DNA from: Ascidia mentula
Taxonomy: Eukaryota > Chordata > Ascidiacea > Phlebobranchia > Ascidiidae
Length of the DNA: 64,000 nucleotides
NCBI GenBank assembly: GCA_947561715.1
Contig: OX387202.1
Location: 3,596,001-3,660,000 of the forward strand
Direction: 5' to 3'
The notes under the pieces were generated by a model. The model was not told the origin of the DNA. It made no database searches and worked only from the letters and a program-made list of their open reading frames with translations. The position numbers and the translations under genes were made by a program. Below, piece by piece: positions 13,501 to 58,649 of this stretch. Numbering within the stretch: position 1 is the first letter of the stretch; each line of letters opens with the position of its first letter.

Positions 13501-16500
13501 TTCCATGGCAACAGGTCACGACTGAGTCTAGTTTGGTGTTTGAACAAAAATTTTAAAATTGGATGATTCGGAGATTAGCGCTAAACATGGACATGCGTGT
13601 ATTTAAACACTTTATGTGAACGCACGGCGTGTTTCGGGGAAAGGTTTTGGTGAATTGCAATTAAATGAGGTTCAAAGATCAATTTCTATGTTGTATTTCC
13701 TTCAACAACCACAGATCGACTCGGCATAACTCAAACGAACGTTTGAACAGAATCCTGTTTAAAACATTTTGGAAATCTTATCTATTGTAATCGAACGCAA
13801 GCGAATTGTTTTGGAAATCTTCAAATTAAGTTGACGGACGAGTTGCTGGGACTGCAACTCAAATTTTCCTGCTTTTAGTGTAAACACTTTTTCGTTATCG
13901 CTCCTGTTAATCCTAAAATTGTAACCGAGCACTTGTCTGTGACGGCGTAAACTGACAAATTGTTCCCTGCTCATCAAGTACAGCAGAAAGTGACTCGCTA
14001 ATTGACGTTAATACGGTTACTATGACAACCGAGGGACACTTGCGAAAGGAACCAACATTTTACCACGACAGAAAACTTTTTGGAAACACTGTTGCGTGGC
14101 CTGTGTTGTTGCATTCAACTCGTATCGTTACAAACACGTGTTATTATTCTTGTCTTTCGTTGTTACTGAAACAACGTTGACAAACGTAACAATATGCTGA
14201 CGTCAGACGTGACGTCAAATTTACGTGGTTCTGTTTTTTAATTGCTTCTAGAATTATGAGAGTTCATTGACAGTTTTTTGGCCGTTTCGCCTCATGTTGT
14301 ATTCTTTTAAGATTGGACCGAAGGAAATCGATTCCAACAACATTTCAAATTTCTCTGTATCTCGGTCTTCGTGACGAAAGTGCGTCAGTGCCGGGTATTC
14401 CCCCATTATCTTCTGTGCCAAATTTCGGGGAAATTTGAGTAAAGGAAAAGCAACAGAATTTTCCAAATGCCATCTGAATGTTAGGATTCTTCAGTGCGAA
14501 TTCGTTGCCTTCGAATCACTTTTTGCACCAAAGTTTTGCTGAATGTGCGTGTATTTATTTATTGCAATAACGCAATGCAATGTATTGACTTGTTCGCCAC
14601 AATTGACAGCTTGGTGTCGCGGCGCCTTCCTCGCCCTTGTATAAACTCCACCAAACATGACCATATACATGTAGCCCAAAGGCCCAATAATAACCCCTGA
14701 TATCGGTATAACCTGAGATAACCCCGATACAATATTTTACAACCTTTTGTGTGACCTTTAATAACCCGAATATTTTATTCAGCGGAGAAAGTGGAGCTGG
14801 AAAGACGGAAACGACCAAATTCATGCTCAGTTATCTCTCCCACGTCAGCCGTGCTTCCAGCAAGACAGAGTGAGTTTAACCTATGACGTCACGGCATGTG
14901 GAAATTTATGAATGGGGAAACTGGCAGTAGGTTTTCAATGGCGTTTGATCCCGAATGCCGGGAGTACTTGGGGTTTTTGTGCAGCTAACTTGTGATGCAA
15001 ACCCTCAGTCTATATGAGTGGAATCGGCGCATGAATTTTTCCGATAACTAAGCTGTGAAAGCTGTGTCTTCCAACGTACAAGATTGTGGGACAATAAAAA
15101 TTCTGCTTCGAGCTTTTGGTTATAAGTAAAAATTATCTAAACCGTTGTAACCGGGCATGAGGTTTCACTAAATCATCGCTCAAAGAACGATTGACCTTTC
15201 GTGACCCCTGCCGTCTCAAACCCTGTTCCATTTTTTCCCCAACAGACCATCAAAGGACAACGGGCGTTCGATCGAGCAGTCCATTCTTGAAAGCAGTCCA
15301 TTACTCGAGGCTCTCGGGAACGCGAAAACCGTGTACAACAATAATTCGAGTCGGTTCGGAAAGTTTATCCAGCTTCTCTTCAGTGAGGCTGGCCAGATCA
15401 AAGGGGCTCGGATAAATGATTGTATCCTTCAGTGTCTATATGGGACTGCGGTGATATTGTTAGGGACTTGGGTTGATATGTTGGGATTAAAGGATCTAGG
15501 CTTGGTTACCTCGGTTAAAGTCTGTATCAAAGGTGGTCAAATAATCTTATCAATGGTTGTAGGCCAACCTTAGCATAAATACATCCGGTTGGAACTCAAA
15601 TAGTCCCTAATATTGTAAGAGACTCCATGCCTTTCTTGCTGGTTCGTATTTACCAACGTGGCTGATAACCGTCTGTCGGCACCTCCCCGTCTGCACAAAA
15701 AAGTAAGGGACATTTTGCACTTTTTTAAATCGGAAACACCGCTAGCGACCATGTCGTTGTTTATTACATCAATATAGCTCAAGCAGTTTCTTGTCGCACC
15801 AATTTGGAAGGTTTTTCCAACATATAATTTTATGTAAATTGCTTTTGTAACCGAAATTAGCTTGTCTTGGGCCAAGGCTACTCTGCACTAACGGCCTATC
15901 GCAGAGGCCTGGAGTCACACGACCAAGGTGGCTATTTTTGTAATACAATAGAAAAACGCTAATAGGTATAAAAAGAATAAAACGATAAAAACGCGAATAA
16001 AACAACGTTTGTTCTAAGACTGGCACAAAATACACATTCCACTACGACTAGCGTTCATCAGCAATTACCACATAAGATCTCTCACCAAAAACAGTGTTTA
16101 CCACACGCCACCACCAGAGAACTGTCTGGCTTTTCGCTCATTATTTCTCTCGCCAGCGCTTGACCAATCATTTCTGCCCGCGTTTGCCACGCAAGCATGA
16201 TCACTCGGGCATATTAAAACGAGTAAATTGCAAAATAATTACAAATATATTATAAAGGTGAGTGTGAAAAGTAAACAAAGAAAAACATGTGAGTTAAAGT
16301 GAAGGTGAAGTGAAAATACAAAAAGAAATAAAGCGTGTGAAAAACAAAACGAACAAAGACGTTTACACCCCCCACGTTAAAAATTGTCCTACTCCGTTAG
16401 GACGCTTGATAAAATTTGGTTTGTCGCCGATTTCGCTGTGGCCGGCTATCATTCATCGTCGCCGCAGCGTCATTTATGTCGGCGCCCAAACCTTGACCAA

Positions 16501-19500
16501 CGTCCATCAATAGCCGTGTAGGCAACCCTGTATCCTGCACCGTGGGTGCGTCCGTGGGTGTTTCGCTTTGTGGTGTGTAGATAACAAAATTGTCTGTGTC
16601 GTGCAGCCCGAGCTCATCCGGCTGCGTGTTTCGGCGTTCTTTTTCATGGTAAGGCATGTTTGCCTTTTTTAAGCGGTTAAAATGTACTTGCTGCTGTTTC
16701 CCATCCTCTCCTTCAATAAGGTAATTCACCATACCTCGTTGCTCAATAACTTTGAAAGGGCCTTTGTATGGTCTGATGAATTTTCGGCACTCGCCAGGCG
16801 GAACCACCGGATTCTCCAAAAGAACGATGTCGCCTTTCTTGATTTCGTCTCCATGCCGTCGTCTGTTGTATTGTTCTTGCATGTGAACTCGTTGGGTCGT
16901 CAGGGTTTCTCTGGCTACTTCCTCAGCCAGCCGCAACCGAGCTCGTAGCCCATCCAAATAAACCAGCGGAGTCGTTGCCACTTCGTTATCTGGAGAAATG
17001 AGATCGGCGGGTAGGCGCAGTTCGTGTCCTGTAAGTAGAAAGTGAGGGGATACCCCCGTGCTTTCATGCCGGCTTGCGTTGTACGAAGCCACCACCGCCG
17101 ACAGTGCTTCATCCCATTGTTTATTATCGCGTTGGACGTAATTGCGGAGCATTGTTATGATGGTGCGGTTGTTGCGTTCGACTCCCCCATTGCTCGCGGG
17201 GTGATATGGCGTCGTTCGGGTCTTTTTACAACCCATCAACCTCACCAGTTCTGCAAATAATTTGCTTTCGAAATTCCCCCCTTGATCGGAGTGAATTACC
17301 TCAGGTACCCCATGTACCGTTAGCCACCTGTGAAACAAAATGCTCGCTGTTTCATGTGCGGTTTGATGCCGCATAGGCCACGCTCTGACATATTTTGTGA
17401 ATAAATCACAAGCGACTAGGATATACTGGTATCCTGTCCTGGTTAACGGAAGTGGACCAAGCACATCAATCTCAACGCGTTGCATCGGTCGCATTTCTTG
17501 TGATGGAACTAACGGTGCTCGGGTGGTAGTGGTTGGTTTCTTATTTCGTTGACAGTGTTCGCATTTACGGCAATAAGCCTCGGTCTCTTCTCTCCATTTT
17601 AGCCAGTAAAAACGCTGCGACAGTTTGCTCAGGGTTTTAGCCATTCCCAGGTGTCCCCCGCCATGTACCTGGTCATGGCACGCGGACAGCACTTCGCTGC
17701 GCATGGCAAAGGGTACCAACACTTTCTGAACATCGTTTAAACCTGGCACCGCACCGGGGTCAGTAATGAATAGCACCCCACCGTGACATGAGAGCCGCTC
17801 GAAAAGGCTCCATAAGTGTTTTGTCTCTGCCGACAGGCGTTTGACGTGGCGAAAAGACGGCCTTATTCCCTGTTGTACCCATTTCACTACAGGGCGCAAA
17901 CTTAAGTCCCTATACTGCGCTTCTGCTACATGGGTGGACTCATACCCGTACTCCGCCTTTAAATCAAGTGCAAGTACCTCTTCCAATGACTCATCCTCAC
18001 GAACTGTGTAAGGGAATCCGTCATCTTCCGGTTGCCTCCGGCTGAGCGCGTCTGCGTTTGTGTGCTTCTTTCCGGGCCGGTGTTGAAGATCAAAATTGTA
18101 ACTAGCCAGGTGTTCAACCCATCGAGCACATTGTCCATAGAGTTCCCTGGATCTCCACAGCCAGCGAAGGGATGAATGGTCTGTGCGCAACAAAAATTTC
18201 GATCCGAGCAAATAACTGCGATATAACTTAGTCGCAAATATGACGGCCAGCAATTCCTTGCGAGTTGTGGAATAATGCTTTTCAGCTTTGCTCAATGATC
18301 TACTGCCGTAAGCGATCACATGCTCCTTACCGTCAATTTCCTGACCGAGAACACAACCTACGGCTGTGTCCGAGGCATCGGTGTCCAACACGAAGGGTCG
18401 GCTAAAGTCGGGATACTGTAGGACTGGAGCTGTTGTCAGAATTCTTTTCAGGCTGGCGAACGCCTGCTGGCAACTGTCCGTCCAGATAAAACGACGTCCC
18501 TTTTCTGTCAATTTGTCTAAGGGGGAGGCGATACGAGCGTAATCTTTAACAAACTTTCTGTAATACAATGTAAGACCCACAAATTGACGCACCTGTTTTA
18601 CAGATTTTGGTACTGGCCAATCTTTAACTGATCGTACCTTATCGGGATCGCATCGTATTCCATGTTTTGACACTATGTGGCCAAGGAATCGCACTTCATC
18701 TTTGAACAGGTCGCACTTCGTGGGCTTTAGTGTAAGTCCAGCCGACTCCAGGCGTGAAAGAACATCTTCAAGACGCTGCATGTGTTCGTTGAAATTTCTA
18801 CCATAAACAATCACATCGTCTAAGTATGCGAGTGTTCCTTGCCACTCTATACCCTGCAGCACAATACGCATTAGGTGTTGGAAGCTTGCCGCTGAGTTGC
18901 ATAATCCCATAGGCATCACGGTGAATTCAAACAAACCCATGTGACTGGAAAAGGCTGTCTTCTCCCTTGATTGTTCGTCCATGGGGATCTGCCAGTAGCC
19001 AGATTTTAGATCAAGGGTGGAAAAGAAACGTGACCCAGACATTTCATCCAGGCTATCATCAACCCGGGGAATAGGGTAACTGTTTTTTTTGGTTGCTTCG
19101 TTTACTTGTCGATAGTCGACGCAAAATCGTAACTCACCAGACTTCTTTTTCACCAGAACAATCGAACTTGACCATGGCGAGGTTGAAGGTCTCACGAGTC
19201 CTTGGCTTCGCATTTCGTTGATGATCTTCTCAACCTCCGTTTTATGATGGATGGACATTCTTCGAGGATGTTGACGGATTGGTGCCGCATCCCCGGTGTC
19301 GATCGAATGTCGAACAAGATCAGTCCGGCCTAGGTCAAAGTTACATGTCGAAAATACTTTTTGATGGCGACGAAGAAGTTTTAAAACATCCTCCCTCTGG
19401 GTTGCTGACAACCCATCTCCGATACTCACGCCTTGGTGAATGCATTCCCAACTTTCTTCATTGGTCGGTGTCTGTGCATAGGAGATATTGCAAACTTCCT

Positions 19501-22500
19501 CTGTAGGTTGCACACTGCTATCTTCAACAACAACACACCATTCCGATAATGGACATGCAACGTTGCCAAAAGCGTGTACTGGAATCGCGACAGCAACCCT
19601 AGTTGCTGATGGTACTAGGATTGGGTCATCGGTAAAATTGGCTATACGTATGTTTACCTCATTTTTCCGCACAGTTGAAACACAGTTCGCTGTACAGAGT
19701 CCAACCTTTTCTGTAAACCCCGGTCTTCGCGCGATATACACTTCAAAGTCAGGGATGTCTTCTCCGCGGACGTCAAGATGGTAACGACATGTGACCCACA
19801 CCTCCGACATTGGAGGGACTTCTGTGGCGTCGGTCACACAAATATCTCTGGTACGTTGTACGAAAGACGACGAGAGTAATGGCACCTTAGCACGGCCCGC
19901 TGTCAACAAATTTTGGTCGTAACACACACTGCAGCGGTTCTTCTGCAGAAAATCCAAACCCAAAATTAAGTGGTGAGCGACGCCCGACGCGACATATAAA
20001 CACGTGGGAACATCTAGCCCTCCCAGTTTAACATTTACAGTGATTTTCCCAATTACTGAAACCAAACTACCGTTAATTCCAGAAAAACGTTCGTTTTGGC
20101 CCAGCGGGGAGATTTTGAGGCGATCATTGTTCAACGTCTCTAAACACTTTTGGCTTATCAAAGAGACACTTGCACCAGTATCAACTAAAGCACATACCGG
20201 CTCCGAAGCGATAGAAATGTTGACAAACCGTACTAATCGGGGTTTGGTGGGATTCTCGCTCGTGTTCTGATTATTGGTAGGATTCGAAGTTTTGGGTTCG
20301 GTGTCCTTCAAACATACACTTGCTTTTGCCTCTTGGGTCACAGGGGTACCAGGTCTTTTATTGAAATTCCTGCGAGGCGTAAAACTGGTATGAAAGCCGC
20401 GCTTACCTTGCATTGGGCAAAATCTTTGCAAGTGTCCTGGTTTACCACAGGCATAACAGCGTCGATCCAACCTGTCTGCCATCTGTTGTGGTGTTGGTTT
20501 CCCCAATCGCTGCACCTCGCGGCGTACAAGCTCAATGTCCTTCTGGAGCGCGGTCACAGTTTTTTGGAATTCTCGAACGCTGATGTCTGCATCCTTTTCC
20601 GGTTGTTTTGATACTGATGGACCTTGAACGTCACGACGACACACGCCTAAAACCTGGAACATTTCCGGTACATGCGTGGACAAAACCATCTGAGCGGCCG
20701 TCCAAAAGTCCCGTTTATATTCCAACCGTTGCGGCAGGGATCTGGCCATGTGCTGGTCCAACATGCCAACAAAGAGTAATGAATATAACACCTCATTTTT
20801 AACAGTCTCCTCCGTAGGATAAGCCTTGTCGCCAAGAGCTTTCAAAGCATACACAAAGTCCTTAATGCTTTCCTGTGGCAACTGCCGCCGGCCAAACAAC
20901 ATTGCGCGTGTTTCATGGAGGCGCGAGTGGTCAGAACCTTGCTTTAGGGCGCGGCTAATTAACTCATCGTACTTCAGTTGAAAAACATTATTGTCGTTTC
21001 CCTGAACTAGCCAGCGGAGGTCATCATCAATTGATGTCAAAAAAAGATGACGCTTCACTTCCTCACTAGCTTTCACACTCTCACAGTACGATTCAAATAA
21101 GGAAACAAACTGGCCAACATCTTGTCCCGGTACAAAGCGCGGTGGCGATAAAAACAAATTAAAAGACATTAAGTTCTCTGAAAGCCGTGTGACCCCTTAT
21201 AAGCGATAGCAGAGTCCTGGCGTGCTCGCCAAATGTAACCGAAATTAGCTTGTCTTGGGCCTAGGCTACTCTGCACTAACGGCCTATCGCAGAGGCCTGG
21301 AGTCACACGACCAAGGTGGCTATTTTTGTAATACAATAGAAAAACGCTAATAGGTATAAAAAGAATAAAACGATAAAAGCGCGAATAAAACAACGTTTGT
21401 TCTAAGACTGGCACAAAATACACATTCCACTACGACTAGCGTTCATCAGCAATTACCACATAAGATCTCTCACCAAAAACAGTGTTTACCACACGCCACC
21501 ACCAGAGAACTGTCTGGCTTTTCGCTCATTATTTCTCTCGCCAGCGCTTGACCAATCATTTCTGCCCGCGTTTGCCACGCAAGCATGATCACTCGGGCAT
21601 ATTAAAACGAGTAAATTGCAAAATAATTACAAATATAATATAAAGGTGAGTGTGAAAAGTAAACAAAGAAAAACATGTGAGTTAAAGTGAAGGTGAAGTG
21701 AAAATACAAAAAGAAATAAAGCGTGTGAAAAACAAAACGAACAAAGACGTTTACACTTTCACTTATGTCCGTGCTCTGGGTTGTTGCCTGGCTCGTCTAA
21801 AGTGGCCGGTGTTGGTTGGGAAACCCCTATAATACCAATATTATGAACGTCACCGTTGTCACCTGGCAATTCATTCGATAAAGTCGCCGTAAAAAACATT
21901 TCATGTAACTTAAAATGGAACAAAACTATGTATTTGTAAATTATCGCCCCTTAACCCCCTGTGATGTCCGCGAACCCCAGATCTCCTTGAGAAGGTAAGG
22001 TTTTGAGAGTTTTACAATATTATAGAAAGACATTGTAATATTTTATATTTATTTGAAAATATTTTGAAACCAATTCAGTTCAATCGTGCAAAATACATAA
22101 GGCGTATGATGTATAAGACCGATGACGAGGTCTTCATATTTACATAAAATTATAAAAAAACACTCCAATTATTTTGACATCGTTAGTGGTTTTGTTTGAC
22201 CACAGAAATTTATTCGAAGTTAACTTAACACTTATCTCGTGCTGCAACACTCTGACGTTTGTCACGTCTCGTTCCCGTTTATCGACGCCGATGAACTTTT
22301 ATAACTGAAGCGTGACGTTATAGTATTGTTCTTACGTCATCACAGCATAGAGTCGTCCGTCAGAACCCCGGAGAGAGGAATTATCACATTTTTTATCAAT
22401 TAGTCCGCGGTCTTTCTCAAGATGAAAAAGGTGAGGCTGCTTTGCATGAAATAACTTAAAACACGAAATAATCTCGTGATATCTCGATGGATTGTTTTTA

Positions 22501-32831: not shown

Positions 32832-33986
32832 GGCAGGTAACTGAACAGACAAAAACAACAACACAAATGAAACACGTGACAGGCGCCACTGGAAAGCCCA
32901 CGGCCGTGACGTCATCATTTGGGCTGCAATGAGGACCTGGGTGTTGACAAGAAACCTTGTTACACAATTTACCCTCACATTAAACCTTTCCCATAAGTCG
33001 GAGAAATGGCGCCGCGATATCCGCACATTTCTGTAAATATTTGCGGTGAATTGGCGTGACTGCATTTTTGGGGTTTATCAGAGAAAGCCAAACTAAACTG
33101 AATCAAATTTACTGACATCCTCGAATTAGAAATCAACTGTCAAATCTGATGGATCAATGTTTATATTTACATGGATTATCAACATCAAAGCATGGAAACG
33201 GTTGCATGCGATATTACAACAACGACATGATATACAAGGAATGATAAAACGGAATAGTTTGTCAATATCTAATTGACACGTTGACATAATTGTATGGAAG
33301 AAGTGGCATCCGAAACGCACAAAATGTAATAATAAGTAGTGTCGACGTCATATTTACCTCAACCGTTTTTTTAACGTCGGATAATAATCACGCGGTAAAC
33401 CAAGTTCAACTGATCTACGGCGAACGTGCTATTCGTTCGTTGACACTTCCAGCAACCAGCCGCCTTTTCAAATGAGTCACGTGGTAATCCGAACTCAAAT
33501 AACCCGGTATGCATTTTCTATATAGGTCACATGTCTTTTTGCGTAAAAATGATACGAAGGGACGTTTTAATTTAAATGTTTTAAACTGATCGATTGACTG
33601 TGGGTTTAATAGCAGCCTTTTTATCAGGAGTCAGATATATGGCAGTATTATTATTTGTGTAGACGTTTTAAGTAACGCTTTGCAAATACCATGATAATAA
33701 CAAAAATGCAGAAATGTGACGTTTTCTCTACTAACACAAAAATTAAAAGGATTTGTGTAATCAATTCGGTTTGGTATAATTGTTTTCGTGTTATTTACGA
33801 TTTAAAGCCTTTATCAAAACAGGTGAAAGTATTTACAATGTCTGTCAATAATTGTAAATCAACACAACGTTGCTATGGTAACTAACGACGCAATGTTAAT
33901 TTTCGTCACTTAAACCTCCCCAACAATTATTCGCATTTCACTTTCATCTTAGAACTCATTATTCCACTCCATGATCTCTTCCAGCT

Positions 33987-36900
33987 CTACCAAGTCATAG
34001 TGTTCTCACTAGTAGAAGTTCTCGACCACGGACTATTGAGTTTGGCATGTGAACAACTACGTTGCCACCAAGCTCCACCATCAGTCACTGCACAATTGCC
34101 TCTTGACCACCTGCAATTATAATTACGTCGGTTGTCAACAACTCTGTGTAACAACTTATTTAAACTCAGATAAAACTTGTGTTTAACTAAAACTTTAAGG
34201 CAACCCCCTGTTTCAGAGCAATTGACCTTTACAATTGTTGATTTAGGGTAGGCGGTTAACTTTGTCAACGAAAATCAACTATTTGAAGAAATGCATTTTA
34301 TCTTTTTTAACACAACTCGGTTTGCTTCGTTAGTAAAACAGAAATATAATCAGACACGTGGTATCATTATTACTCACAAATCATTGTCACTGTTGCGAGT
34401 TGAAAATCTCATCCCGTTTAGATTCTGCCCGCTTGTCATGGCATCTCCGATATTCCCCGAATATCCGGATATAGTAATTGTGTAAGAACTTCCTTCATCG
34501 CCAATGCTGAAAGTACTGAAAACAACAATGTCATAATGTTTAATTTAATGCAAAGTAATTTAAATAACAACGGATAATTTGTTGTTTTAAATCAATTCGC
34601 TTACATTGGTTTGTTTCTCAAGGGAATGATTGTTAAAATTAAAACCCTTGTGTGGGATAATTATTTGTCAACTAAGCAATAAACACAGAGTGGGATTAGA
34701 AGTTTTGAGAAGGAAACTCAGATATTTTTCAACTTTAAGTTCACAAACGACTGGAGGTCCATTTTTAAGCAACCTGAAACCTGTTCCATTTAAATAAGAT
34801 GTCAATCAAGCATACGATGCTGACATTGCAAGATGTCGCCTAAGGCAGCGGTTTTTAATCTTTTTTTATCTCATTTCCCACTTCCAGTGTAAACGGAATC
34901 TTTATTTCCCACTGGTATTTACATTTTTTAACTAAGAATCTAAACATTGTATTTTCGCTATATCTGTTATACTTTTTTAACTTTTTATACCGCATGGCAT
35001 TACCAATTACCAATAAGTGTACAACACACAGTGAATACTGATCATTATATTTCTTTTCCGACTACTTTTGTGTATTTCGGTGCCGACTAATTATCCACCT
35101 ACAACCCTAAAATTTCCAACCGGATACGAACCACTGGCCTAAGGAATTAACTCTGCAGGCCAATGCACCCATTTTCTTGCATAGAGGCCCAACAATATCC
35201 AATCAACCACGCAACGACCAGCAGCTAACCCAGGGGTGGGCAAAGAGAACACAGAGAGTTTACACTATACAACTTATACACTGACAATGAAGTTGCGTCA
35301 GCGTCTTACATGTCGCGATTACGGGATTTTGTTGCCCCATTGAAAACCATGTTGGGCAGAAAATCGAAATTTCAAATACTGGATTATGCATGGGTGTTAG
35401 ATGGAGAATATAATAATCTTTTTATCCCATATATCGATGCGGGACACAGCACTAATATTCACTTCTAGATGCCTACGCTTCAGAAGATTTGGAATCAAGG
35501 GAAAGAAAATTTTATGCAGCCACATTCTCTAAGCTCAAAAAGGTGGCGTTCGACCCAATCCGAGCCCCACTGAGCTCGGTTCCGGCAATCCGCGACCAAG
35601 GGATCGCGCAAACCTCAAGAGCGATGATGTGGGGTCGTTACGAGTTGATTGCCATCCCTATGTGTGAGCGGTATCTAAACTTTTTGTTTCATGATTATTC
35701 CGAACCGAGTAAATGCATTGAAACACAGCAAGAATATTCTGTGTTGCTTCAAACTTAAATCCCAAATTTTGGGAATCTGACGTAATAAAGGGGGGTATTC
35801 CCCTAATGTATTTTAAGATTTTGTTAGCTATGACGACCTGGCAGCATCGGGTAAATTAGCGTTGGAACAATGGAATTGAATTGAAAACGTTAAATACGTT
35901 ATATTCTTACCTATACTCGGCAAAACCTTGACCTCCGGAAAAATCCTGAAGGTCAACACGAAGGCGACATCTAGTGGACGCACTGGTGATTTGATGCAGT
36001 TTCTCCAAGCCTGATAAAATTTGTTGGTTGCAATAATATTGCTAAAAAGACTGGAATTTAAATTGGATTAAATGATACTGTTCTATTGACTGATGGGATT
36101 GTTACATAGCGTACTTGAAACGTTTTGCTTGGTAGGCCTGTATATTTAACTGGGTGTGCACAGGTTATAACAATGTGTTCAGTAAATGCACTCAACCTAA
36201 AACAAACCTGGAATTCCTGTTGCTGCCAAGCATATTTCAATTTAAAATGTACCGCTCTTCTGGCATAAAATATACGTGCTGTAATTTTACGACGTTTCGT
36301 CTGCCATGCGGCGAGACTTCATTAGGTATTGATGCCGCAATTTCAAAGTAAACTACACTAAAACATTCAGGGGCACAAAAAAGAAAAAGGATACGTTGAC
36401 ACCGCTTGTCAGATCACGTGGCAGAGGCAAAAACACCAAACACTGCAGGAGGCGCAACAGTTACAACAAATTGTTATAAACTGCCAGAAAGAAAACAGAT
36501 TGTTCTTTGTCATTAACGCATCCACTGTTTTTGTGAATGTGTTCGTGTATTTTATGGCAGAAGAGCGGTACATTTTAAACTAAAACAAGCCATTATTCAA
36601 AGTTTTGCAACATTTGTACTTAGTTAAGGATTGCTTTATTGGCATACAAACCCATCCAAAATTCTGTTGATAGATCCCCAAACCCGTTCTTGTAATCCAC
36701 CCAATCTCTATCGAAACTCACAGATCCATCATAACGACGCTGGAACACCTGGTAATTATCAAGTAAAACACTTGACACTGATTTTCGGTGAATTGGTCTA
36801 AAAAAGTTCGATGACCTCCATGTCAATGTATGACTTTTCACATTCATGTGTAATTTCCTGACCTTTATAAACAACACAATCCCGGGCGTATGGTAAAGTA

Positions 36901-40830: not shown

Positions 40831-42488
40831 CATGAAATATTCCAACCGCCTTCGTACCTATTGTTGTCAACCCTTTTATCTTTAGACTGCATATCTTTTA
40901 ACATTGTTATCTGTCTAATATTATTTATTGTACATTCGCATCAATTTATTTTTCCTTCGATTTGGTTGTTTTATAAACACGGTTCCTTGTATGTCTGCGG
41001 GTAGCCTTTCCCATAAGTCGGTGAAATGGCGCCGCGATATCCTCGCATTTCTATAAATATTTGCGGTGAATTGTCGTGAATGCATTTTTTGGGTTGATCA
41101 GAGAAAGCCAAACCAAACTGAATCAAATTTACTGACATCCTCGAATTAGAAATCAACTGTCAAATCTGATGGATCAATGTTTATATTTACATGGATTATC
41201 AACATAAAGCATGGAAACGGTTGCAACGACATGATATACAAGGAATGATAAAACGGAATATGTTGTCAATATCTAATTGACACGTTGACATAATTCTATG
41301 GAAGACGTGGCATCCGAAAAACACAAAATGTAATAATAAGTAGCGTCGACGTCATATTTTTTTTCATATTTACCTCATTTAAGTCGGTTGTCAACAACTC
41401 TGTGTTACAACTTATTTAAACTCAGTTAAAACTTGCGCTTAACTGAAACTTTGAGGCAACCCCCTGTTTCAGAGCAATTGATTTTTACAATTGTTGATTT
41501 AGGGTAGGCGGTTCACTTTGTCAACGAAATTCAACTGTTTCAAGAAATGGATTTTATCGTTTTCAACACAATTCGTTTTGTTTTTTTAGTAGAACAGAAA
41601 TATAATCAGACATGTTTTATCATTATCTTTATTTCCCACTGGTAGTTACATTTTTTAACTAAGAATTGAATTATTGTATTTTCGCTATATCTGCTATACT
41701 TTTTAACATTTTCTACCGCATGGCATTACCAATTACCAATAAGTGTACAACACACAGTGAATACAGATCATTATAATGCTTTTCCGACTGCTTTTGTGTA
41801 TTTCGGTGCCAACTAATTATTCACCTACAACCCTACAATTTCTCACCAGATAAGAACCGCTGGCCTAAGGAATTAACAATATCAAATCAACCACGCAACG
41901 ACCAGCAGCTAACCCAGGGGTGGGCAAAGAGAACACAGAGAGTTTACACTATACAAATTATACACTGACAATTAAGTTGCGTCAGCGTCTTACACGTCGC
42001 GATTACAGGATTTTTGTTGCCTCATTCAAAACATTGGGAGTCAAGCATGTTGGGTAGATAATAGAAATTTCAAACACTGCATGGGCGTTAAATGGAGAAT
42101 ATAACAATCCATTGATCCCATATAACGATGCGAGACACAGCACTGATATTCACCGGATTGCTGGCATCAATTGTCAAACGGTTTAGCCGTGGTTAATTTC
42201 GCTTGAACTGTCTTCCAGATGCCTACGCTTCATCCCTATGTGTGTGCGGTATCTAAACTTTTTGCTTCATAATTATTCCGAACCGAGTAAATGCATTGAA
42301 ACACAGCAGGAATATTATGTGTTGTTTCAAACTTAAATCCCAAATTTTGGGAATCTGACGTAATAAGGGGGGGTATTCCCCTAATGTCTTTTAAGATTTT
42401 GTTAGTTATGACGACATGGCAGCATCCGGTAAATTATCGTTAGAACAATGACATTAAATGGAAAACATTAAATACGTCATAGTCTTAC

Positions 42489-42588
42489 CTATACTCGGCA
42501 AAACCTTGACCTCCGGAAAAATCTTGTAGGTCAACACGAAGGCGACATCTAGTGGACGTATTGGTGATTTGATGCAGTTTCTCCAAAC
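42489..42588 (-). pseudogene. Isolated fibrinogen-domain exon in copy 2
   Basis: A 100-nt exon equivalent to 35,911-36,010, encoding LEKLHQIT and [13 protein letters not shown] sequence, still with a GTAAGA-like donor. Neighbouring exons are missing, so it is a remnant. Confidence 0.75.
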
Positions 42589-42601
42589 CTTATAAAATTT
42601 G

Positions 42602-42751
42602 ACGGTGATTGACGGTGATTGTATAGTCACCACAAAGTGGAAGTCTTTGCTTGGCCGTTTGGTCAGCAAAGTCGTCTTATAATCACACAAGCTGCACTGA
42701 TGAGACCTTTTAGGTCGAAACAGTGGCCATCTGTCTGCAGCTTATACACAA
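42602..42751 (+). mobile_element. 150-bp hammerhead-bearing retroposon
   Basis: It is flanked by perfect 13-bp repeats CTTATAAAATTTG at 42,589-42,601 and 42,752-42,764. The paralogous site in copy 1 (near 36,010-36,025) has a single CTGATAAAATTTG and no insert, which defines the insertion exactly. The 5' end has a tandem ACGGTGATTG. It contains a complete hammerhead motif near its 3' end and no coding sequence. Confidence 0.8.
42689..42743 (+). ncRNA. Hammerhead ribozyme, complete core
   Basis: Helix I AAGCTGCA pairs with TGCAGCTT (8 bp). Core CTGATGA at 42,697-42,703. Stem II GACCT-TTT-AGGTC at 42,704-42,716. GAAA at 42,717-42,720. Stem III CAG-TGGCCAT-CTG, extended by the A-U pair next to the core. 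The cleavage triplet is GTC, so self-cleavage would fall after 42,735. All invariant hammerhead nucleotides are present, with helix I open at both ends (type I). Penelope-like elements and small retroposons are known carriers of such ribozymes. Confidence 0.88.
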
Positions 42752-42822
42752 CTTATAAAATTTGTTCGTTGTTATAATCTTGACAAAAACACTGGAATTT
42801 AAATTGGGTTAACTGATACTGT

Positions 42823-43288
42823 TGTAACACGGCTAACTTAACAGGCCCCACGGCCAGCTAACCTTGTCACAGGGTTTTGACCGCACCGACAGCAAAGAAC
42901 AGTATTCTTTTATTCTGCGGCACAGTCAACCTACTGTGACACGTTCACTAAACAAACAAACACATATTAGCGAACAGTGACACATGTAACATGACAAACA
43001 ATATTTAACTCACCAATACAAGATCGACTTCGAATCGCATTCGGTTGCACCAGGTAAATTTACGTTAGGCAGTCACTATTTAAGTTATCAACTTGAGTCA
43101 ATTCACTGCAATTCACAACAGATATTTAACCACCAAAACAGTTTACTGCACGCAGACAAGTTCAACACGTGGCAGACATTAAGACTGCTGGCACTAGCCT
43201 TGCATCATACAGTTGGTAGGGGCATTATGACGTTTCTATTGTTTTGAAATTTCTTCACATGATAAGTTACGCGCACAAAAATCACACA
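42823..43288 (-). repeat. BEL/Pao 3' LTR
   Basis: About 466 bp, sharing GGCCAGCTAACCTTGTCA and TTGCATCATACAGTTGGTAG with the LTR at 48,120-48,600. It lacks a short stretch (ATGTAATAAGG-like) present in the other. Confidence 0.9.
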
Positions 43289-49952: not shown

Positions 49953-50005
49953 CTATGAGACCTTACAGGTCGAAACAGTGCGTGTACACACCCTGTCTGT
50001 AGCTC
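49953..50005 (+). ncRNA. 5'-truncated hammerhead relic
   Basis: CTATGA replaces CTGATGA, followed by stem II GACCT-TAC-AGGTC, GAAA, and a longer stem III (ACAG...GTGTACAC...CTGT) ending TC then TGTAGC. The helix I 5' strand is missing. The sequence beyond (50,010-50,105) matches 4,547-4,660. Confidence 0.5.
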
Positions 50006-57540: not shown

Positions 57541-57946
57541 CTTACGAAATGAACTGGAAAATTTTATTTTTGAATTTATTGACGCGCCCACTGCCTGTAT
57601 CTCACAATATCACGTGACCGCCAATTTATAATGTATCGCTTTGGTCCTCTCTTATTATTTTCTTTGATTCCATTCTGATTCGATGATGTTTAAACTCGAT
57701 TGTATTTGGTTGCATTTCTAATTCTCAACAAACTTCATTGCGAATCATAGCAATCAAGCAATATTTGTTACCATTGGCTGGTTACGTACCTATATACTAT
57801 GCTGTATACGAACGTTGTAAATGATCATATCTATCTGGAGTTATTCCGCATATCAAAGTTGGACGAACGAGATCTGTCACACCGAGCATTCCCATACATC
57901 TTCTTGCTTGGCCGTTTGGTCAGCAAAGTCGTCTGATAGTCACACC

Positions 57947-57999
57947 AGCTGCACTGATGAGACCTTTTAGGTCGAAACAGTGGCCATCTGTCTGCAGCT
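57947..57999 (+). ncRNA. Hammerhead ribozyme, second complete copy
   Basis: Helix I AGCTGCA with TGCAGCT (7 bp), CTGATGA at 57,954-57,960, stem II GACCT-TTT-AGGTC, GAAA at 57,974-57,977, stem III CAG-TGGCCAT-CTG and GTC, predicting cleavage after 57,992. Core and stems II and III are identical to 42,697-42,735, while the flanking sequence differs to the left of TTGCTTGGCCGTTTGGTC. Confidence 0.87.
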
Positions 58000-58649
58000 T
58001 ACACACAAATATAATGACGTAATCTGACTGTGACCATAATGTTCATGATATCTTGAATGCCATGTTACGTAAACACGTAACAGTGGTGATGATTTCATGG
58101 TGAAAGAATATTTGTTTCTTTACGCCTGCATGATATTTTATGACAATTATTCTTTTTCAAAATAGCAAACTATAATAAAAAACAATGCCCAATACCAAGT
58201 TAAATAATCTTTTACACATTAGGGCCAGCAGTGACGAGGCGTCCTTTTTCAATAACTTTCCAAAACATAAACACATGTCTGTTTGTTATATTGATTTTAA
58301 GGCTCTACTTCTTCACAAATGAACATCAATGGAATAGATCAGTGGAAAATGTGTTTGAGTGTTTGTTAACAAAACAAAAGTGAAAAACCGCAATCCAATT
58401 TATCAGTTCTTACTGTGGCACTTATTTCAATACACACGCAAAAGAACAACAAAACAAAAGCGATTTAAAACAATGTGTTTCCTCTTCACAGACTCATCGT
58501 AAAATAATACCTCGATTTCATTACAGTTGATATGTGTGCTGCTAAAAACATAGGTTTACTAGTTTTTCAATAAAATGAGAAAGTTTTTTTTTGTTGTGTA
58601 TCTTTTGCTCAATTGGTCACAGGTGAAAGCACCAGGAAATAGGGCTAAC

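Follow-up and report, generated by a model that had tools for sequence, protein, structure and literature searches.

A 5'-truncated retrozyme copy in Ascidia mentula and insertion footprints that point to Penelope-type mobilisation in trans

Introduction

Metazoan non-LTR retrozymes, as described by Cervera and de la Pena in 2020 (PMC7229834), are non-coding elements with a type I hammerhead ribozyme that occur in tandem copies, and the part of that paper used here gives monomers of 170–400 nt, a GC content under 50% and target-site duplications longer than 4 bp. Its discussion proposes Penelope-like elements (PLEs) as a candidate mobiliser. A 2020 review (PMC7761336) also names PLEs as likely candidates, and describes the retrozyme repeats as without a motif pointing to an autonomous partner. 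Hammerheads have already been reported from tunicates, at nine loci in Didemnum vexillum according to the excerpted text of PMC8704543.

The hallmarks of PLEs given in the relevant section of PMC3846280 are target-site duplications of 8–10 bp, pLTRs arranged head-to-head and a tail of ~31 bp on one inverted pLTR. For an anole PLE, the consulted part of PMC11167929 reports an enzyme that cuts and extends both strands and initiates internally on the RNA, at a pair of adjacent sites; a difference in start site between the strands was not seen there in bulk.

Here we analyse a window of 64,000 nucleotides of the Ascidia mentula genome that carries an insert belonging to the metazoan retrozymes: a small non-coding tandem repeat unit with a type I hammerhead, a GC content below 50% and target-site duplications longer than 4 bp. 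The retrozyme class is already known; what is new here is the mode of insertion. A link between retrozymes and PLE-type insertion is not reported in the titles and abstract openings of the open-access literature searched. The footprints in this one genome, with its thousands of short copies, bear on the question of which enzyme moves animal retrozymes.

The window insert and its flanks

The insert is flanked on both sides by 13-bp repeats with no mismatch (Table 1), which agrees with the perfect target-site duplication of the preliminary description. The extent proposed there, 42602–42751, holds in that the repeats bracket it, but the sequence common to other copies begins at 42610 and not at 42602. 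The 8 nt in between probably reflect slippage of the reverse transcriptase or a junction repeat. The window copy is itself single-ended.

An empty site in a duplicated locus had also been described, and it is present: the unoccupied CTGATAAAATTTG differs from CTTATAAAATTTG by one mismatch. It lies in a paralogous flank 6.6 kb upstream of the insert, where 35653–36023 matches 42231–42601 at 93.0% over 371 bp, and the paralogy picks up again past the insert (35995–36085 against 42737–42827, 81% over 91 bp). The source of the empty site is a pair of segmental-duplication blocks at 32985–36085 and 41005–42827 (80–93% identity). The insert is non-coding, as first noted; the longest open reading frame (ORF) that overlaps it has 78 aa and lies mostly outside, and the longest one mostly inside has 52 aa. 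Elsewhere the window holds an LTR retrotransposon (15846–21756), whose terminal repeats are 99.4% identical and which contains a 1,590-aa gag-pol-like frame (16397–21169).

Table 1 Retrozyme-related features in the window (positions in window coordinates).
Feature	Position	Strand	Remark
Left target-site duplication, CTTATAAAATTTG	42589–42601	+	read directly
Additional 8 nt, ACGGTGAT, partly repeating the following 10 nt in tandem	42602–42609	+	
Family A retrozyme copy, 5'-truncated, monomer positions 143–284, with its end at the no-tail start site of reverse transcription	42610–42751	+	
Type I hammerhead ribozyme	42689–42743	+	
Hammerhead stem I	42689–42696/42736–42743	+	8 bp
Hammerhead core CTGATGA	42697–42703	+	
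Hammerhead stem II	42704–42716	+	5 bp
Hammerhead GAAA	42717–42720	+	
Hammerhead stem III	42721–42733	+	3 bp plus A15.1-U16.1
Predicted self-cleavage site GTC^T, after C42735	42735–42736	+	sequence prediction
Right target-site duplication, CTTATAAAATTTG	42752–42764	+	read directly
Paralogous target, unoccupied, CTGATAAAATTTG	36011–36023	+	
Second family A copy (96% identical, 5'-truncated) with hammerhead core and stems	57904–58008	+	
Family C-like hammerhead remnant, 5'-truncated, start of core lost	49955–50005	+	

The insert contains the conserved core, three helices, an open stem I and an NUH cleavage triplet of a type I hammerhead, in line with the complete ribozyme and GTC site recognised earlier. 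The loop of stem II has only ~3 nt. In the proposed check against the Rfam hammerhead models, RAGATH-1-hammerhead (RF03152) is the closest model with 22.1 bits and Hammerhead_1 scores 16.7 bits; these lie far under the gathering cut-off of 56.3 and under that of 34, respectively. At gathering level no hammerhead is found in the whole window, a tRNA being the sole match. The match below cut-off is nonetheless not due to chance, since the exact 27-nt hammerhead core has 731 matches in the genome and the reversed control none. The weak RAGATH-1-hammerhead match (42660–42740) reaches upstream of the ribozyme into a hairpin, which might hint at a tertiary contact.

Retrozyme families

The searched genome assembly comprises 195.8 Mb in 79 contigs. 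Tandem copies of the family to which the insert belongs (family A) are spaced 284–286 bp apart and give a monomer of 284 nt, and the 44-nt ribozyme core of this family has 1,379 genome matches with at most three mismatches (control, 0). A second abundant family, C, has a 293-nt monomer (L113 and L114, among the 20 loci L099–L118), the same insertion anatomy and 706 cores within three mismatches. The GC content of the 284- and 293-bp monomers is 0.475 and 0.474, i.e. below 50%, and they are non-coding, the longest ATG-initiated ORF on a trimer having 46 aa. Monomer size, GC content and duplication length all agree with the values from the cited part of PMC7229834. The Ascidia retrozymes differ from that set in their tunicate host, and the fixed 3' ends and the PLE-type footprint documented below are not described in the portion of PMC7229834 considered. 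The predicted circular fold of the monomer is more stable than those of 60 shuffled sequences (z = −3.7).

A diverged retrozyme, family B (L074:4600–4842), is about 70% identical to A and has the same tail start, TTCATATTATTGGCTCCAC; a search with it returned one full-identity match and then only matches of 71–74% over longer stretches. It entered only alignment A1 (13 A, 5 C and 1 B units), where its row ends before stem I. Two stretches of the core, CTGATGAGA and GTCGAAACAGT, do not vary among these units, and a tail motif is common to the families, TTATTGGCTC in A and B and TTATTATGGCTC in C. A few hairpin changes in the alignment of A, B and C are compensated; covariation is modest, with both sides changed in 5 of 44 pairs and a covariation term of −1.17. 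Within family A, divergence is 0.28% in the hammerhead versus 2.3–4.8% elsewhere, a contrast that is biased because the units were selected for a near-intact core. The same selection bias affects the comparison of A with C, which are 87% identical in the hammerhead and 45–74% in the four other regions of at least 33 columns.

Target-site duplications

The first 40 family A copies studied were those that matched the window copy best; the next 20, and a further 20 held out, were taken in order along contig C1 from the list of exact cores, leaving out tandem arrays, copies already sampled and one near neighbour. Twenty family C copies were hand-picked from the 40 best matches. The preliminary description would have been refuted by a lack of further genomic copies with target duplications; such copies exist, and it is not refuted on this count. 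Duplications scoring at least 10 flank 39 of 60 family A copies versus 8 of 360 mismatched flank pairs, and 16 of the 20 held-out copies versus 1 of 120; for family C the numbers are 11/20 versus 1/200. The counts for the 60 A and 20 C copies include the duplicated loci L082/L083, L087/L088/L089 and L105/L106, recognised by their shared flanks. A convincing duplication is absent in 21 of the 60. The duplications are AT-rich (0.77–0.80 AT versus 0.62 in the flanks) and measure about 12–14 bp in most sampled copies.

Copy ends and the exactly-one-tail rule

The statistics on ends omit copies that touch the edge of the extracted stretch (2/60 in family A, 4/20 in family C). The right ends of the remaining 58 family A copies fall at two places only: 39 lie 16 nt beyond the cleavage site, just after ...ACACAA, and 19 lie about 45 nt beyond it, about 30 nt further on and after the tail. 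No poly-A or simple-repeat 3' end occurs among the retrozyme ends inspected. About half of these copies (33/58) start with an inverted segment. In the other 25, which have a direct left segment, the start positions are spread widely over the 284-nt unit, between 1 and 251. The outer left end of 30 of the 33 inverted-left copies is again one of the two fixed sites, and the other three have an internal left end. Since the outer left ends of these 30 copies use the same two sites as the right ends, both ends of such an insertion appear to be starts of reverse transcription. The inner junctions of copies are variable, and duplications flank both outer sides of two-ended insertions.

Among the 30 two-ended family A loci, the tail is on the left only in 19 and on the right only in 11; none has both or neither. 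L082 and L083 represent one duplicated insertion, which leaves 29 independent discovery loci (Fisher P = 2.9e-8); the duplicated locus L087/L088/L089 is not two-ended, and the duplicated L105/L106 touches an edge. Family C has eight inverted copies, one with an internal left end, and each of the seven classifiable ones has exactly one tail; the share of two-ended copies in this family is meaningless because some were picked for having a listed inverted partner. The rule was set down beforehand as a prediction for the 20 held-out C1 copies, and all eight two-ended ones obeyed it. Six were classed by script; two had been called 'other' since the BLAST alignment ran into the flank, and on re-examination both have the tail core on the left arm and lack it at the right end. 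Among the held-out copies, L130 reached an edge; it is direct-left. Taken together, exactly one tail of ~30 nt is present in 45 of 45 classifiable two-ended loci of families A and C (44 independent). These loci represent a single genome and two related families and were not sampled at random.

Raw differences between the two arms of an insertion do not separate from those between insertions in family A (5.93% within, 5.96% between) and in family C run against a common template (5.68% within, 3.48% between); some arms are complex, which inflates the raw figure. At seven polymorphic sites of family A, however, arms of the same insertion agree in 26 of 27 comparisons from seven insertions, including the single differing insertion, L094, which amounts to 0.037 differences per site within an insertion versus 0.44 between insertions. 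This agreement suggests that both arms probably derive from the RNA of one locus, and perhaps from one RNA molecule.

Penelope-like elements of the same genome

Exactly one tail is also found in 8 of 8 independent insertions of four GIY-YIG families; these are the insertions with both ends recognisable in the stretches examined and do not constitute a survey. Five of them (L020, L027, L073, L077 and L078; L036 is a duplicate of L027, the two being counted once) represent three Penelope-like families, with 23–37% protein identity between families, tails of 31–43 nt and duplications of 10–12 bp. The fourth family (L026, L034 and L037), classed by its GIY-YIG domain, has an unusually long tail of about 84–85 nt at one end and duplications of 11–13 bp. 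Two PLE ORFs scanned contain RVT_1 and GIY-YIG. A PLE array (L071 and L072, C67:6130000–6149999) consists of units of about 2,870 bp with open frames of 892 aa; two reversed units are followed by three in forward orientation. At a unit junction in L072, a minimal hammerhead (CTGACGA ... GAAAGCTT) was read by eye. A motif scan of eight PLE contexts returned no hammerhead and missed this minimal one. Judging from this single example, the hammerheads of autonomous PLEs in this genome look minimal, unlike that of the retrozyme.

Penelope/Poseidon-type PLEs, as portrayed in the extracts of the literature used here, resemble the retrozyme in their head-to-head layout, the ~31-nt tail at one inverted end, the short AT-rich duplications and a hammerhead that lies close to the insert's 3' end. 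The two-ended retrozyme copies, at family level, have the same footprint of inverted ends, a tail at one of them and a short AT-rich duplication. PLEs are defined by an ORF that encodes a reverse transcriptase and a GIY-YIG endonuclease. The retrozyme is non-coding and so is not a PLE, although it inserts like one. Its stem III is longer than that of the minimal hammerhead in L072, and, retrozyme-like copies apart, it shares no sequence with the PLEs that were examined.

Mode of insertion

The footprints of the retrozyme and PLE insertions support mobilisation in trans by Penelope-type machinery. The earlier reading of the insert as retrozyme-like holds, and its mobilisation in trans, likewise suggested there, is probable. 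On these comparisons the window insert is very probably a 5'-truncated copy of a 284-nt metazoan non-LTR retrozyme with one type I hammerhead, moved in trans by a Penelope-type (GIY-YIG endonuclease) reverse transcriptase. The ribozyme would trim tandem transcripts, which may then be circularised. Because both start sites lie 3' of the cleavage site, the template would have to span the cleavage junction, which would make it either circular or an uncleaved multimer. The enzyme would nick both target strands and start cDNA at one site per strand. In single-ended copies such as that in the window, one strand may have been extended and the other end joined by repair.

The preliminary description took the insert for a complete, minimal ribozyme-only retroposon of 150 bp, and the window copy has that look when taken alone. 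It spans monomer positions 143–284 after 8 extra nt and is thus 5'-truncated; it begins inside a unit whose tandem spacing refutes a 150-bp monomer, and the scattered starts of the 25 direct-left copies point the same way, so that this reading is now extremely improbable. That a MITE or other DNA transposon acquired a hammerhead in its inverted repeats by chance would explain the inverted termini of about half of the examined copies, yet it is hardly conceivable given the single-ended truncated copies, the tandem arrays, the variable inner junctions and the asymmetric tail. A SINE-like element carried by a LINE of the L1, RTE or R2 type through ordinary target-primed reverse transcription would show the observed 5' truncation and duplications of variable length. 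We consider it very unlikely in view of the two fixed 3' ends, the lack of poly-A or simple repeats at the ends inspected, and outer ends that both lie at 3' sites, one and only one of them bearing a tail. This last arrangement is not expected from L1-type twin priming.

For head-to-head insertions, an alternative to the priming of two strands is self-priming, or fold-back, a hypothesis put forward for PLEs in the section of PMC3846280 cited above. A near-palindromic PLE dimer (L073) and the alleles common to the arms of one retrozyme insertion would fit. Fold-back, however, would copy the first end and leave two tails or none, whereas all 45 classifiable loci have one, and duplications occur on both outer sides; it therefore appears very improbable. 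An origin of the retrozyme from the pseudo-LTR of a PLE after loss of the ORF concerns ancestry and is compatible with mobilisation by Penelope-type machinery. It is favoured by the hammerhead, tandem habit and tail common to both elements and by sequence relatives near some GIY-YIG fragments (L074, L075 and L076). We nevertheless think this origin unlikely: the relatives nearby look like separate insertions, and no homologue of the whole 284-nt unit was found in 38 partly overlapping stretches around GIY-YIG matches. Against mobilisation by Penelope-type machinery itself count the same stretches, in which no element with a tail like that of the retrozyme was found, together with the 21 family A copies that lack a convincing duplication and the unlike hammerheads of the autonomous PLEs. 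A search for the tail motif around GIY-YIG matches yielded nothing beyond copies of the retrozyme-like kind and short, unrelated matches.

The exactly-one-tail rule sets tight limits, open to test, on the priming of both strands by PLEs; it concerns the two ends of a single insertion, unlike the bulk start-site data in the part of PMC11167929 considered. A further proposal, to which we give about even chances, is that retrozymes live as dedicated parasites on Penelope-type machinery, much as Alu depends on L1, and that their short copies reveal a rule of this machinery: in a two-sided insertion one RNA source would offer two adjacent start sites, each serving exactly once and on a different target strand. 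If true, it would imply an asymmetric dimeric RNP on one RNA and would speak against fold-back priming for head-to-head PLE copies.

Two other PLE loci deserve mention. A hammerhead relative at L075 was considered as evidence for a partner and dropped, as it comprises one local cluster and more diverged dispersed copies. In that region (C67:15.36–15.40 Mb) diverged hammerhead-like segments are locally repeated downstream of a PLE frame, and relatives about 80% identical to them are dispersed elsewhere. The PLE dimer at L073:4859–9655 is a near-perfect palindrome of 4.8 kb, and sub-threshold Rfam matches of the mir-239 kind at its centre are probably due to the palindrome.
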